IMG/VR virus record: IMGVR_UViG_3300022818_000255
Coordinates: 1 to 31,929 of that record
Length of the DNA: 31,929 bases
Reading direction: 5' to 3' (one strand)
Source: a virus
A model generated the notes under the pieces. It saw only the letters and a program-made list of their open reading frames with translations, was not told the DNA's origin and ran no database searches. The translations under genes were made by a program, and so were the position numbers. Shown here one piece after another: positions 11,553 to 15,545 of this stretch. Position 1 is the first letter of the stretch; each line of letters starts with the position of its first letter.

Positions 11553-13358
11553 ATGAATGAAACACAAAGCACACGAATAGAGAAAATGAAAGATATGTGG
11601 AACGAGGCTCTTAAAGGGCAAGCCGAGTATATTCAAAGAGCTATAACTAATTATGGCTTTTATGAGGGTGGCGATAAGCAATGGGATGCACAAGACATTA
11701 CTATCCTCAACCAGAAGAAGCGTATGCACTTATCACTTAATATTATCTTCCCGATTATAAACCTACTTACTGGGTACGAACGCCAGAACCGTATGGACAT
11801 TAAATGCTATCCCAGAAAAGGCGGGATTGGTATAGTAGCAGACCTGATGACCGAATTAGCTAAGCATGTGGAAGATATGTCTAATGGCTTATATGTTCGT
11901 TCAAACACTTTTTATGACGGGATAATCAGCAGTAAAGGCTTTATTAGTTTAGATATTAAATACGATGAAGATCCTTTTAACGGCGAAATAACAGTAGATA
12001 GCGACGATCCCTTTGACATCTACGAAGACCCGAATAACAAGAAATATGACCTTAATAATGGCAAATATGTCATCCATTCCTACTGGGGAGATAAAGAGCA
12101 GATTAAACTTATCTACCCTAAAAGCGAAAAAGAACTGGATGAGTTAAAATATGACGATTTAGATAACCTTGATAGTGAGAGGCTTCCTGGAAGTGATAAG
12201 AGTCCGGATAAATTTAAGGCTCGTATTAGAGAAACATGGTGGAAGTCTTACGAGAAAGCTATCTATTTAATTAATACGCAAACTATGGACAACAAGCGAG
12301 TTCATAACACCAAGAAAGATTTATTAAAAGTCTTACTTGAGAAAGACCGCAGAATGTCCGAAGCAGAAGGTAGGCAACCAATGTTAGCAGTTAGGGAAAG
12401 TGTTATACCGGTCCTAAACTGCACTACCACTATAGGGAATATTGAATTAGAACACGTAGAAAGACCATTCGGCGAGATGTCCAAGTTCCCCATTATTAGA
12501 TTTGTTCCTTACTTTGTCAAAGGTAACTTCTTAGGGGTAGTGGATAACCTGATTGACGCACAGAAAGAAAAGAATAAAAGACGTTCGCAGGCTTTAAACC
12601 TTTTAAATAGTTCCGTTAATAGTGGATTCTTCAACAAGAAAGAAGGCGGAGCTAACCTTGATGATTTAGTAGAACAAGCTTCCAGCCCTGCACCAGTTAT
12701 AGAATACGATACTGTTAAACCAGAGAAGATAGAGCCTACCCAGTTATCAGTAGGACATATCACCCTTGAGAAGTTATCCGAAGAAGACGCTTCTAAAATA
12801 TCCTCCGTTAATCTCAATATGCAGGCACAGGGCCCGGCAAGTGAATCAGGTGTTAAAGATAGACAGAGGATTAATCAAGGTTTAATAGGCAGTGAAATAA
12901 TCTTTGACAATATGAAACTCACTCACAAGATATACTCCGAAACCATAATCGAGATGATTAGGTTTGGTAATACCTTCTCAACACAAGAGATAATGTCGAT
13001 AGCAAGTGAAGCTAAAATGGAACAAAATGTTGACCAACTGTTAGAAGCGATCAGAAGCAGGGGAATAGGTAAGTATGGGATACAAATATCCAGCTCACCT
13101 ACTAACCCAACCATAAGATTTGCTAACTTTGAAATGTTATTAGATATGGCCAAGATTTACGGAGAAATAATCCCCCCGGACATTGTGATAGAAGCCTCAG
13201 ACGTGAATAAGAAAGATGAGATTATAGAACGCTTACAACAGCAACAGCAAATGCAGGCACAAATGGCGCAGCAACAAATGCAACAGCAGGCTCAATCACA
13301 GGCACAGCAACCTCAAGCTAAACAACCTCAACAAAGAAAACAATTAGTTAAAAGATAA
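11553..13358 (+). CDS. Portal protein (P22 type)
   Basis: 601 residues. The N-terminal ~200 residues match the P22-type portal family: AEYIQRAITNYGFYEGGDKQWD, LNIIFPIINLLTGYERQNR, then DPFDIYEDPN and YVIHSYW. Twelve copies form the ring through which DNA enters and leaves the head, on which terminase and later the tail adaptor dock. The last ~40 residues are almost pure glutamine/alanine (from about 560), a disordered or helical-barrel-like tail. AGGAG lies upstream of the ATG. The family fits the P22-like tail genes further down. Confidence 0.85.
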   Translation: MNETQSTRIEKMKDMWNEALKGQAEYIQRAITNYGFYEGGDKQWDAQDITILNQKKRMHLSLNIIFPIINLLTGYERQNRMDIKCYPRKGGIGIVADLMTELAKHVEDMSNGLYVRSNTFYDGIISSKGFISLDIKYDEDPFNGEITVDSDDPFDIYEDPNNKKYDLNNGKYVIHSYWGDKEQIKLIYPKSEKELDELKYDDLDNLDSERLPGSDKSPDKFKARIRETWWKSYEKAIYLINTQTMDNKRVHNTKKDLLKVLLEKDRRMSEAEGRQPMLAVRESVIPVLNCTTTIGNIELEHVERPFGEMSKFPIIRFVPYFVKGNFLGVVDNLIDAQKEKNKRRSQALNLLNSSVNSGFFNKKEGGANLDDLVEQASSPAPVIEYDTVKPEKIEPTQLSVGHITLEKLSEEDASKISSVNLNMQAQGPASESGVKDRQRINQGLIGSEIIFDNMKLTHKIYSETIIEMIRFGNTFSTQEIMSIASEAKMEQNVDQLLEAIRSRGIGKYGIQISSSPTNPTIRFANFEMLLDMAKIYGEIIPPDIVIEASDVNKKDEIIERLQQQQQMQAQMAQQQMQQQAQSQAQQPQAKQPQQRKQLVKR

Positions 13359-13361
13359 AAC

Positions 13362-13480
13362 CACAATGGGGGATTATAGGAAACTATAATACCACAAGGA
13401 GACTGAATTCGCATTGTGATATATCAATGGATATTGAAAGCCTCCTTCCCCCAGCGTCCAATTGTTAAGAGATAGGAGGG
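13362..13480 (+). promoter_or_regulatory. Structured leader RNA able to mask the next ribosome site
   Basis: This gap between portal and next gene carries several perfect pairings. CACAATG (13362-13368) pairs with CATTGTG (13412-13418), enclosing ATTATAG/CTATAAT (13373-13379/13384-13390), capped by a GAAA tetraloop and extended by GG/CC past a bulged A. TCAAT/ATTGA (13424-13437) forms another small hairpin. TGGGGGA (13367-13373) can also pair with TCCCCCA (13447-13453), while CCTCCT (13441-13446) pairs with AGGAGG (13474-13479), the ribosome site of the gene at 13484. The last two helices together make a pseudoknot. No known RNA class is recognised; function as a translational switch is inferred. 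Confidence 0.55.
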
Positions 13481-13483
13481 AAT

Positions 13484-13762
13484 ATGAATATATTATCCGA
13501 AGTAATGCAAACTTATTGGACTAATAAATGGGCTGATACGTATGGGTTAGATAGAAAATATGCAGATAACGCTTTAAAGATGATTGGAGAATTAGAAACT
13601 GAAACAGATTTTGATGAAGATTTAATCCAAGCAGTTGTTTTATCTTCGTACCCATTAAATCCACCTGAATCTATATTTGATAAATTTGAAAAAGGAAAAG
13701 GTAGTAAAAATGCTGGTAAATCAGTTAAGTTTATAACCTACACTGCGGGTTTGAAGCAGTGA
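13484..13762 (+). CDS. Hypothetical protein between portal and scaffold genes
   Basis: 92 residues, family not recognised. AGGAGGG lies 5 bases before the ATG but can be masked by CCTCCT in the leader. The N-terminal 45 residues are helical (SEVMQTYWTNKWADTYGLDRKYADNALKMIGELE), followed by an acidic stretch and a lysine/glycine-rich linker (DKFEKGKGSKNAGKS). The position suggests a head-assembly accessory protein made in controlled amounts. Confidence 0.5.
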   Translation: MNILSEVMQTYWTNKWADTYGLDRKYADNALKMIGELETETDFDEDLIQAVVLSSYPLNPPESIFDKFEKGKGSKNAGKSVKFITYTAGLKQ

Positions 13763-13803
13763 TTAGCCTAACTTAGGGGCTTAAAACCAAAGGAGTTAAT
13801 TAA

Positions 13804-14523
13804 ATGGCAGACTTAGAAACAGTAGAAACGGTTATAGAAGAACCGAAAGAGAAATCATACACCGAGAAAGAGTTTAAAGGACTTTTAAGCGATAAGCAGA
13901 ACGAAACAAGGGCAAGGCAGGAAGCACAGGCTAAGGCGGCACAATACGAAGTAAAGTTAGCTGAACTACAAACACAGTTAGCGCAGAAAACCTCTACTAC
14001 CCAAGAAGGCGATCCAGAAGATGTAGCAACTGTCGCAGTATTAAATCAAAAGATAAGCAATTTAGAGAATAAACTAACCGGTATGTATACCAAGAATGAA
14101 ACTGATAAGACTACAACCGAGAAGAATAAGCTATTAGAGAAAAGTGTTAATGACGCTAAAGATAAATACACCGAAGCAAAGGCAGGCAAAGGATTATCTT
14201 TTGATGAGGTGAATGAAGGTACAGCACGTATGGTTAAGGAAAATCCTGTATGGGGACAACTGATAATGAATGACCCTAACCCTGCTGAAAGAGCCTATCA
14301 AGTAGGCTTACAAGACCCCATTATTGCTAAACGATACGCAATTTATAGTAAAACTTTACCGGCTGATAGAGTGACTTCGAAAGAAGGTTTACAGGGAACC
14401 ACTATCCCAGGCGGATTCTATACTCAAGAATATGTTAAGAAGATGTCAAGCACACCCGGATGGATCAAAGAACATTACGAAGACATAGCAAAAAGTCAAG
14501 AGAAATGGAATACCAAAAAATAG
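13804..14523 (+). CDS. Capsid scaffolding protein
   Basis: 239 residues. The composition is typical of scaffold proteins: acidic N-terminus (ETVETVIEEPKEKSYTEKEF), a long coiled coil rich in A/Q/E/K (about 28-115, including QAKAAQYEVKLAELQTQLAQ), and a C-terminal segment rich in lysine (WIKEHYEDIAKSQEKWNTKK) that could be the coat-binding end. It lies directly before the major capsid gene, as in many P22-like phages. No protease domain is visible, so it is probably released intact or cut by another enzyme. Confidence 0.75.
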   Translation: MADLETVETVIEEPKEKSYTEKEFKGLLSDKQNETRARQEAQAKAAQYEVKLAELQTQLAQKTSTTQEGDPEDVATVAVLNQKISNLENKLTGMYTKNETDKTTTEKNKLLEKSVNDAKDKYTEAKAGKGLSFDEVNEGTARMVKENPVWGQLIMNDPNPAERAYQVGLQDPIIAKRYAIYSKTLPADRVTSKEGLQGTTIPGGFYTQEYVKKMSSTPGWIKEHYEDIAKSQEKWNTKK

Positions 14524-14537
14524 TGGATAAATAACCA

Positions 14538-14557
14538 CCTCATTGGTTTAAGTGAGG
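14538..14557 (+). other. Hairpin in the leader of the major capsid gene
   Basis: CCTCATT (14538-14544) pairs with AGTGAGG (14551-14557) over 7 bp with one U-G pair and a 6-base loop. There is no T-run, so a role in mRNA processing or stability is likelier than termination. The remaining gap bases up to the AAAGGAG site of the capsid gene hold no ORF. Confidence 0.35.
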
Positions 14558-14634
14558 TTAATCATCTAACTCCAAAGATGTAAAAGAAAGAGGTAGAAAG
14601 TAAAACATAAATAATAAAGTAAAGGAGTTAGACA

Positions 14635-15450
14635 ATGAGTATTTTAAACAGCATTCCTGAATTATGGAATGTAGCAATGATGCACGAAATGGAAAGAACA
14701 CAAGTCTATGGCAAAATCGCACGATGTGTTATAGACGCACCTATAAAGAAAATGGGCGATACCGTTCATTTTAGCGGAATAGGTGATATTACCATAGGAA
14801 CTTACACTGGGGCAGATATAACCATGCAAGCTTTATCTGACGTCGGGTCAACTATGGTAATAGATAAAGGCGATTACTTTGACTTTATAGTAGATGATGT
14901 AGACGCACTACAATCTAATGCCGCACTAATGAAAGAAGCAACCCACAGAGCTGCTTATAAGATGAAAGACGCTGCTGATGACAATATCTACGACGCAATG
15001 GTAGCTGGAGCAGGTGTAACTGGTCCCACTGAAGGCACTGTTGATGTAACTGCTGTTATAAGTAACATAGCTGAAATGGATTTAAAACTTAAAGAAGCAG
15101 AAATCCCTGAAGAAGAAAGATGGATAGTATTTCCTCATTGGGTCGGAACTAAACTCTTACTCGCTGGGATTTATCAGGCTCAGGATTTAAAGGGTAATAT
15201 CAATGGTTTTATTGGTAGCCAATTAGGTATAGATATGTATGAGTCTGGTGTTAACGCTGCCACTGTAGTTTTAGCTGGTTCTTATGGTTGCACTGCTTTT
15301 GCAGAACAAATTGTAAACACTGTAGCCTTCTCACCTGAAAAGAGATTTGGTGATGGTTTAAAAGGACTTCACGTCTACGGAGTAAAAGTAGTTAAACCTA
15401 ACGAATTAGTATTAGGAAGCTTCACTGAAGCTGTAGAAACTTTAATATAA
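14635..15450 (+). CDS. Major capsid protein (probable HK97-fold)
   Basis: 271 residues. The N-terminal helix (SILNSIPELWNVAMMHEMERTQVYGKI), the beta-rich MGDTVHFSGIGDITIGTY, and the following IDKGDYFDFIVDDVDALQSNAALMKEATHRAAYKM pattern (about 80-115) match many phage coat proteins. The C-terminal part has VVLAGSYGCTAFAEQIV and a final GVKVVKPNELVLGSFTEA strand pair. Place in order (portal, scaffold, coat) supports the call. It is small for the family, so extra stabilisation by a decoration protein, perhaps the one encoded at 15546, is plausible. Confidence 0.8.
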   Translation: MSILNSIPELWNVAMMHEMERTQVYGKIARCVIDAPIKKMGDTVHFSGIGDITIGTYTGADITMQALSDVGSTMVIDKGDYFDFIVDDVDALQSNAALMKEATHRAAYKMKDAADDNIYDAMVAGAGVTGPTEGTVDVTAVISNIAEMDLKLKEAEIPEEERWIVFPHWVGTKLLLAGIYQAQDLKGNINGFIGSQLGIDMYESGVNAATVVLAGSYGCTAFAEQIVNTVAFSPEKRFGDGLKGLHVYGVKVVKPNELVLGSFTEAVETLI

Positions 15451-15458
15451 TTTAAATC

Positions 15459-15525
15459 ATGGGAAGTCTCTAAGATAAGGTGAGACCATAGGAGTTTTCA
15501 GGCAGGATTTGAACTCCTAATTTTA
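15459..15525 (+). terminator. Tandem hairpins after the capsid gene, second one terminator-like
   Basis: First hairpin: ATGG (15459-15462) and GTCTC (15466-15470) pair with GAGAC-CAT (15482-15489), with GAA bulged out. Second hairpin: TAGGAGTT (15489-15496) pairs perfectly with AACTCCTA (15512-15519), followed by ATTTTAATT. The T-run is short, so it may act as a leaky terminator or as a 3' stabiliser that keeps capsid mRNA in excess over the downstream genes. Confidence 0.5.
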
Positions 15526-15545
15526 ATTGAAAGGAGATTATTAAT

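Follow-up and report, generated by a model that had tools for sequence, protein, structure and literature searches.

Pseudoknot-hairpin leaders before the scaffold-like and major head genes of a phage, and a plausible two-fold leader of an inserted neighbouring ORF

Leaders built from a pseudoknot and a hairpin were found before both the scaffold-like gene and the major head gene of the virus record analysed here (31,929 bases, referred to in full as the window) and of its relatives, and the existence of this family is well supported. A 125-base stretch further upstream in the same gene cluster had been flagged from its letters as a structured leader able to mask a ribosome site. The joint reading that we regard as probable on balance is that the flagged stretch is the private two-fold leader of an inserted gene, ORF92, and that the RNA control kept by evolution resides in the adjoining leaders. 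The main scientific value lies with this neighbouring leader family, over the flagged stretch itself.

Results

Gene cluster and setting

The cluster comprises, in order and on the plus strand (as are all features described below), the gene for a P22-like portal protein (11553-13358; PF16510), the flagged gap from the portal stop to the start of ORF92 (13359-13483), the accessory ORF92 (13484-13762), a scaffold-like protein gene (13804-14523) and the major head protein gene (14635-15450; phrog_267). The scaffold-like gene was assigned by position and composition, together with a match, over 26 columns at the C-terminus of the family, with the scaffold annotated in phage D6E (E 5e-4, one comparison); PHROGs gave no useful match for it. 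Codon usage of ORF92 fitted its own frame, with a score of 0.286 per codon versus -0.74 and -1.08. Relatives of ORF92 were absent from the viral contigs and phage records searched, and Pfam gave no match.

The flagged gap has the 125 bases given for it in the original prediction; the cluster, there called otherwise packed, contains further gaps of 157, 111, 95 and 184 bases. A single weak sigma-70 promoter site was present near the flagged gap, fewer than in shuffles. Two other gaps also carry potential structure. The gap immediately 5' of the gene at 2967 contains a G+C-rich stable fold (2888-2966; z -2.28), and the gap 3' of the major head gene (15451-15545) contains two hairpins, GTCTC/GAGAC and GGAGTT/AACTCC, with a stability not above that of shuffles.

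The scaffold leaders

The scaffold leader of the window spans 13735-13803. Its pseudoknot (13735-13761) consists of S1 (13735-13739/13747-13751) and S2 (CACTGC 13741-13746/GCAGTG 13756-13761) and is followed by the hairpin P3 (13765-13781), in which 13765-13769 pairs with 13777-13781. The scaffold leaders of the relatives have a common layout of an H-type pseudoknot, then a hairpin and then the Shine-Dalgarno (SD) sequence, with an S1 of 3-6 bp, an S2 of 4-7 bp and short loops. The scaffold leaders thereby have the H-type pseudoknot 5' of the ribosome site that marks operators of the gene 32 type.

In 30 of the 36 distinct scaffold leaders, the pseudoknot-hairpin scored better than 95% or more of the 60 shuffles made for each. 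Among the six below this level, L009, L010 and L015 were lost to the nine-base loop limit of the scanner, while L018, L019 and L169 stood at 7-8%. Five of the 36 (L008, L009, L010, L015 and L165) were placed by hand, having been missed through the loop limit or misplaced by the scanner. Applied genome-wide the scanner was unspecific, giving 8 matches per window strand versus 4-6 in shuffles.

A structure-blind MAFFT alignment (A3) was made from 35 of the 36 scaffold leaders, L175 being left out. S2 was paired in 86.1% of its cells, and four of its five pairs change on both sides. The corresponding values for S1 and P3 were 71.0% and 51.7%, the hairpins varying in length and being partly misaligned. 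The covariation score of 0.373 compared with 0.190 for shuffled alignments, none of 500 reaching the observed value, and with at most 0.239 for slid partners. The count of both-side changes and the count of pair types were not exceptional, with 40 of 500 shuffles in each case. In one comparison the helices were chosen to pair, and the "100% paired" obtained there holds by construction; the non-circular tests are the per-leader shuffles, the MAFFT covariation, the model search and the SD permutation.

A further pseudoknot-hairpin leader, ahead of the major head gene

In the window, the head-gene leader contains a pseudoknot (14533-14557) formed by S1 (AACC/GGTT) and S2 (CCTCAT 14538-14543/GTGAGG 14552-14557). 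This is followed by the P3 hairpin CATCT-AACTCCAA-AGATG (14563-14580), which contains the anti-SD TCTAACTCC (14565-14573). The SD region of the head gene, GGAGTTAGA (14624-14632), is the 9-bp complement of this anti-SD.

A model of S1 and P3 (R1) was trained on scaffold leaders alone, the head-gene leader being outside the training set. In the window it scored its own scaffold leader at 32.9 bits and the head-gene leader (14532-14598) at 32.4 bits (E 5.1e-5), with the next match at 16.1 bits (E 0.12). The head-gene leader (14532-14634) was found to belong to the pseudoknot-leader family. The same model found the head-gene leaders of L007, L378, L001 and L220 (E 2e-4 to 8e-3) and gave weaker matches elsewhere; no match below E 0.1 was obtained in 66 more distant loci or in three named-phage loci. 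A long gap with a head-gene leader was present in 13 of 33 genomes (the window counted; L013 and L014 are nearly identical). In the other 20 the leader was missing, with either a short gap or a broken gene (L183). The head-gene leader of L359 (2384-2473) contains two tandem pseudoknot-like units.

SD masking in the head-gene leaders

As judged from the paired sequences, SD masking of the kind first proposed for the flagged stretch is supported as a likely property of the major head gene instead. In 16 of the 17 head-gene leaders, L375 being the exception, the 5' strand and loop of P3 can form 8-11 pairs with the SD region. The window anti-SD TCTAACTCC pairs with GGAGTTAGA, in L009 and L012 TCTCCTTTT pairs with AAAAGGAGA, and in L359 TTCACTCC pairs with GGAGTGAA; the anti-SD and the SD region represented in the window by 14533-14634 were found to change together. 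The complementarity was first spotted by eye, and the leaders in which it was spotted also served for the test, all 17 of them placed by hand (18 minus L363). This gave a mean of -12.1 kcal/mol for own anti-SD/SD partners versus -8.7 kcal/mol for permuted ones, with none of 5000 permutations reaching the own value. When a single leader was kept per anti-SD sequence (n=10), 7 of 5000 permutations did so.

For the window head leader, a nested model that takes no account of the pseudoknot gave -21.2 kcal/mol for the masked fold versus -15.8 kcal/mol with P3, a preference for masking of 5.4 kcal/mol. A competing anti-anti-SD spotted by eye in the head leaders failed its permutation test (1238 of 5000), and a per-gene survey of SD masking was set aside, its fixed six-base frame being blind to the head-gene pairing. 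In the scaffold leaders, pairing with the own SD did not go beyond that of swapped partners (726 and 2032 of 5000 permutations), and SD masking is therefore supported for the head-gene leaders only.

Two folds of the flagged stretch

All of the pairings originally claimed for the flagged stretch are present in its letters. The hairpin ATTATAG-GAAA-CTATAAT (13373-13390; strands 13373-13379 and 13384-13390, loop 13380-13383) is common to both folds described here, with pair probabilities of 0.79-1.0, and a small hairpin joins ATATC (13421-13425) to GATAT (13430-13434). The segment CCTCCTTCCCCCA (13441-13453) combines the anti-SD CCTCCT (13441-13446), complementary to the AGGAGG that forms the SD of ORF92 (13474-13479), with the strand TCCCCCA (13447-13453). 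In fold A (-33.3 kcal/mol, 13350-13500), the latter pairs with TGGGGGA (13367-13373), and AAGGAG (13396-13401), overlooked in the first reading, acts as a competitor that holds the anti-SD as CTCCTT. TGGGGGA and AAGGAG together are the split partner of CTCCTTCCCCCA, keeping the anti-SD off the ribosome site. In fold B (-32.9 kcal/mol over the same stretch, with CCTCCT forced onto AGGAGG), the outer helix of CACAATG (13362-13368) and CATTGTG (13412-13418) returns with the inner hairpin as first drawn.

The expectation of two mutually exclusive folds, one of them covering the AGGAGG of ORF92, was thus borne out for 13359-13483, the masking alternative lying within 0.4 kcal/mol of the best fold. 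The two are near-equal in energy, and on these energies it is plausible that the flagged stretch is a two-state leader RNA. The nested ensemble favoured the unmasked fold, at about 0.76 versus 0.18 masked (13350-13500). The masking probability depended on the ends chosen, falling from 0.18 to 0.036 for the six-pair SD mask when 13359-13500 was folded alone; as 17 of 400 shuffles reached 0.036, masking here is not strongly above chance.

Stability was modestly beyond that of shuffles, with z from -1.4 to -3.4 across the stretches folded, the values near -3.4 belonging to stretches trimmed after the fold was seen. For 13355-13500 the z value was -1.44 (15 of 200 shuffles equally stable), for 13359-13483 it was -2.31 (2.2% of 500 shuffles) and for 13359-13459 it was -3.05. 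Among 2000 shuffles of the gap, CCTCCT occurred in 1.4%, and only 0.05% had both this word and a 7-bp helix rich in GC, both features having been picked after the fact. On the plus strand of the window, CCTCCT is found only at 13441 and 23144 and AGGAGG 24 times, as if anti-SD words were avoided.

No known RNA class had been recognised in the flagged stretch by eye, and the covariance models of Rfam 15 agreed: the window had no match at the gathering threshold, 13300-13900 gave chance matches only (best E 2.1), and the sole matches in 18 related loci were to tRNA and tmRNA, at a distance from the leaders. The tmRNA matches of two relatives lie 5' of structural genes (L012:1105-1180 and L152:543-645).

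A two-state leader dedicated to controlling the gene at 13484 and selected for it, whether riboswitch-like or protein-bound, would account for the close energies of folds A and B, and the head-gene leader in this genome shows covariation in favour of the same anti-SD/SD principle. Against such selection stand the minority share of the masked state in the nested ensemble, the want of an Rfam class and the failure, described below, to find relatives and hence covariation. Selection for this role is in our view unlikely, although far from negligible.

Searches for relatives of the flagged stretch

Searches with blastn against phage records found no relative of the flagged stretch, and a search of its own genome returned only itself. 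Searches of viral contigs with its exact 14-mers each hit more than 100 stretches, none of them related beyond the seed by blastn or nhmmer. A pattern with a free inner stem also gave no relative, and a two-gap pattern of fold A gave eight stretches, all coincidences, six being copies of one coding region. The structure model R2, which is the flagged stretch aligned with itself, matched the flagged stretch and then nothing better than E 0.15. As the stretch is without relatives, its structure may be chance.

The similar logic of the neighbouring leaders, in the same cluster and likewise with a pseudoknot-capable fold, an anti-SD and an SD, could suggest that their family includes the flagged stretch in degenerate form. 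Model R1 with filters off, however, gave nothing at 13359-13483 up to E 10, and the pseudoknot scanner gave no match there with a score of at least 29. Membership of the scaffold and head-gene leader family is accordingly disfavoured and very improbable.

Insertion at the portal-scaffold junction

The portal-scaffold junction was readable in 32 related contigs, some of which are near-duplicates. In 26 of these, the portal stop runs directly into the scaffold leader and gene, and in six (L007, L011, L160, L165, L177 and L179) a different gene is present at the junction. ORF92 or the flagged stretch was found in none of the 32. The flagged stretch together with ORF92 was inserted where the portal gene met the old scaffold leader, and the phage group has not carried the flagged element for long.

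The junction appears to be an insertion hot spot, with an extra ORF in 6 of 32 relatives, at least one of them HNH-like. The extra genes of L160 and L165 were HNH-like by eye; a Pfam HNH match (E 0.015, which misses the cut-off) was obtained for L165 only, the others having no useful match. At the other end of the insertion, the stop codon of ORF92 (13760-13762) coincides with the 3' strand of S2 (13756-13761) in the scaffold leader, and in L007 an unrelated 92-aa ORF likewise ends within the scaffold-leader pseudoknot.

At the right edge of the flagged stretch, AATTGTTAAGAGATA (13460-13474) reads IVKR-stop in one frame and is a possible, weak remnant of the portal 3' end. Because 13 of 500 shuffles gave as good a likeness, it was taken as no more than a hint. 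No relative with a different junction gene had a repeat of its portal end.

These observations bear on the possibility that the flagged stretch was simply left behind when recombination or homing introduced ORF92, with helices that are inert products of chance. The lack of relatives, the modest z of 13355-13500, the weak second portal end and the presence of other genes, at least one HNH-like, at the same junction are all in keeping with such an origin. It accounts less readily for an exact six-base anti-SD that changes partner between two equally stable folds, an uncommon arrangement given the 1.4% of shuffles with CCTCCT, and for the occurrence of this word just twice on the plus strand. Inert leftover DNA is a considerable possibility, short of an even chance.

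The likeness to the portal 3' end could be taken to mark the flagged stretch as a small insert of an intron-like or translational-bypassing kind, the removal of which would unite two portal ends, its right end reading ...PQRPIVKR-stop compared with ...QQRKQLVKR-stop in the portal. The portal, however, has its own LVKR-stop ahead of the insert, so that nothing needs joining; the repeat is weak, and Rfam gave no intron match. An insert of this type is most improbable. The reading that we prefer remains that of a private leader which came with ORF92.

Discussion

The two folds suggest how such a private leader might work. In fold A, TGGGGGA and AAGGAG would sequester CTCCTTCCCCCA and so leave the ribosome site of ORF92 free; in fold B the upstream helix would form and CCTCCT would cover the AGGAGG. 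The leader would most likely dampen ORF92 translation or fix its level, and might act as a switch. Because the final bases of ORF92 fall within the scaffold pseudoknot, ribosomes translating ORF92 would unfold that operator, and a leader that damps ORF92 could, speculatively, shield the scaffold operator from them.

At the head gene, the hairpin P3 and the anti-SD:SD helix would be mutually exclusive, and the pseudoknot upstream would be a natural ligand site. A ligand might stabilise P3 and so free the ribosome site, or do the reverse. As the pseudoknot precedes both the scaffold and the head genes, a structural protein common to both would be the simplest ligand, most simply the unassembled scaffold or coat protein. 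Bound to the pseudoknot, it could shift the hairpin between masking and exposure and thereby tune scaffold and coat synthesis. Translation control, the ligand and the links between the leaders are what we infer from these arrangements. In its most complete form, the proposal would be that one trans-acting protein, free scaffold or coat, reads the shared operator and sets the scaffold:head ratio, with the head copy acting as an anti-SD switch and the ORF92 leader protecting the operator; this is put forward tentatively, as somewhat doubtful.

The proportioning of scaffold and coat proteins in phages is a long-standing question. An RNA operator common to both genes, combined with a covarying anti-SD, would if true make it testable with reporters. 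A described equivalent of the leader family was not found among the openly accessible published papers searched, and the scaffold and head-gene leader family is apparently undescribed so far.

A close comparison is with the autogenous operator of gene 32 in T4, T2 and RB69, where a pseudoknot lies 5' of the ribosome site (PMC3014915). That T4 example also shows that a phage pseudoknot is able to serve autogenous control (PMC3014915). The leaders described here similarly place an H-type pseudoknot 5' of a phage ribosome site, and control by the own product is conceivable. Unlike the gene 32 operator, they precede scaffold-like and head genes, have a hairpin between the pseudoknot and the SD and, at the head gene, add an anti-SD; their operator role is putative. 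The hairpin operator of T4 gene 43 has a -UAAC- loop (PMC3014915), and many P3 loops here also carry UAAC. The genes concerned are, however, different, and the likeness is likely a coincidence.

As in translational riboswitches and r-protein operators, the anti-SD can alternatively pair with the Shine-Dalgarno sequence; for the leaders here, any ligand is putative and Rfam gave no match. In P22, the scaffold protein (gp8) limits its own synthesis, and we know of no RNA target for this autoregulation. The portal gene of the present cluster is P22-like, and a conserved scaffold leader would fit post-transcriptional self-control of the same kind.
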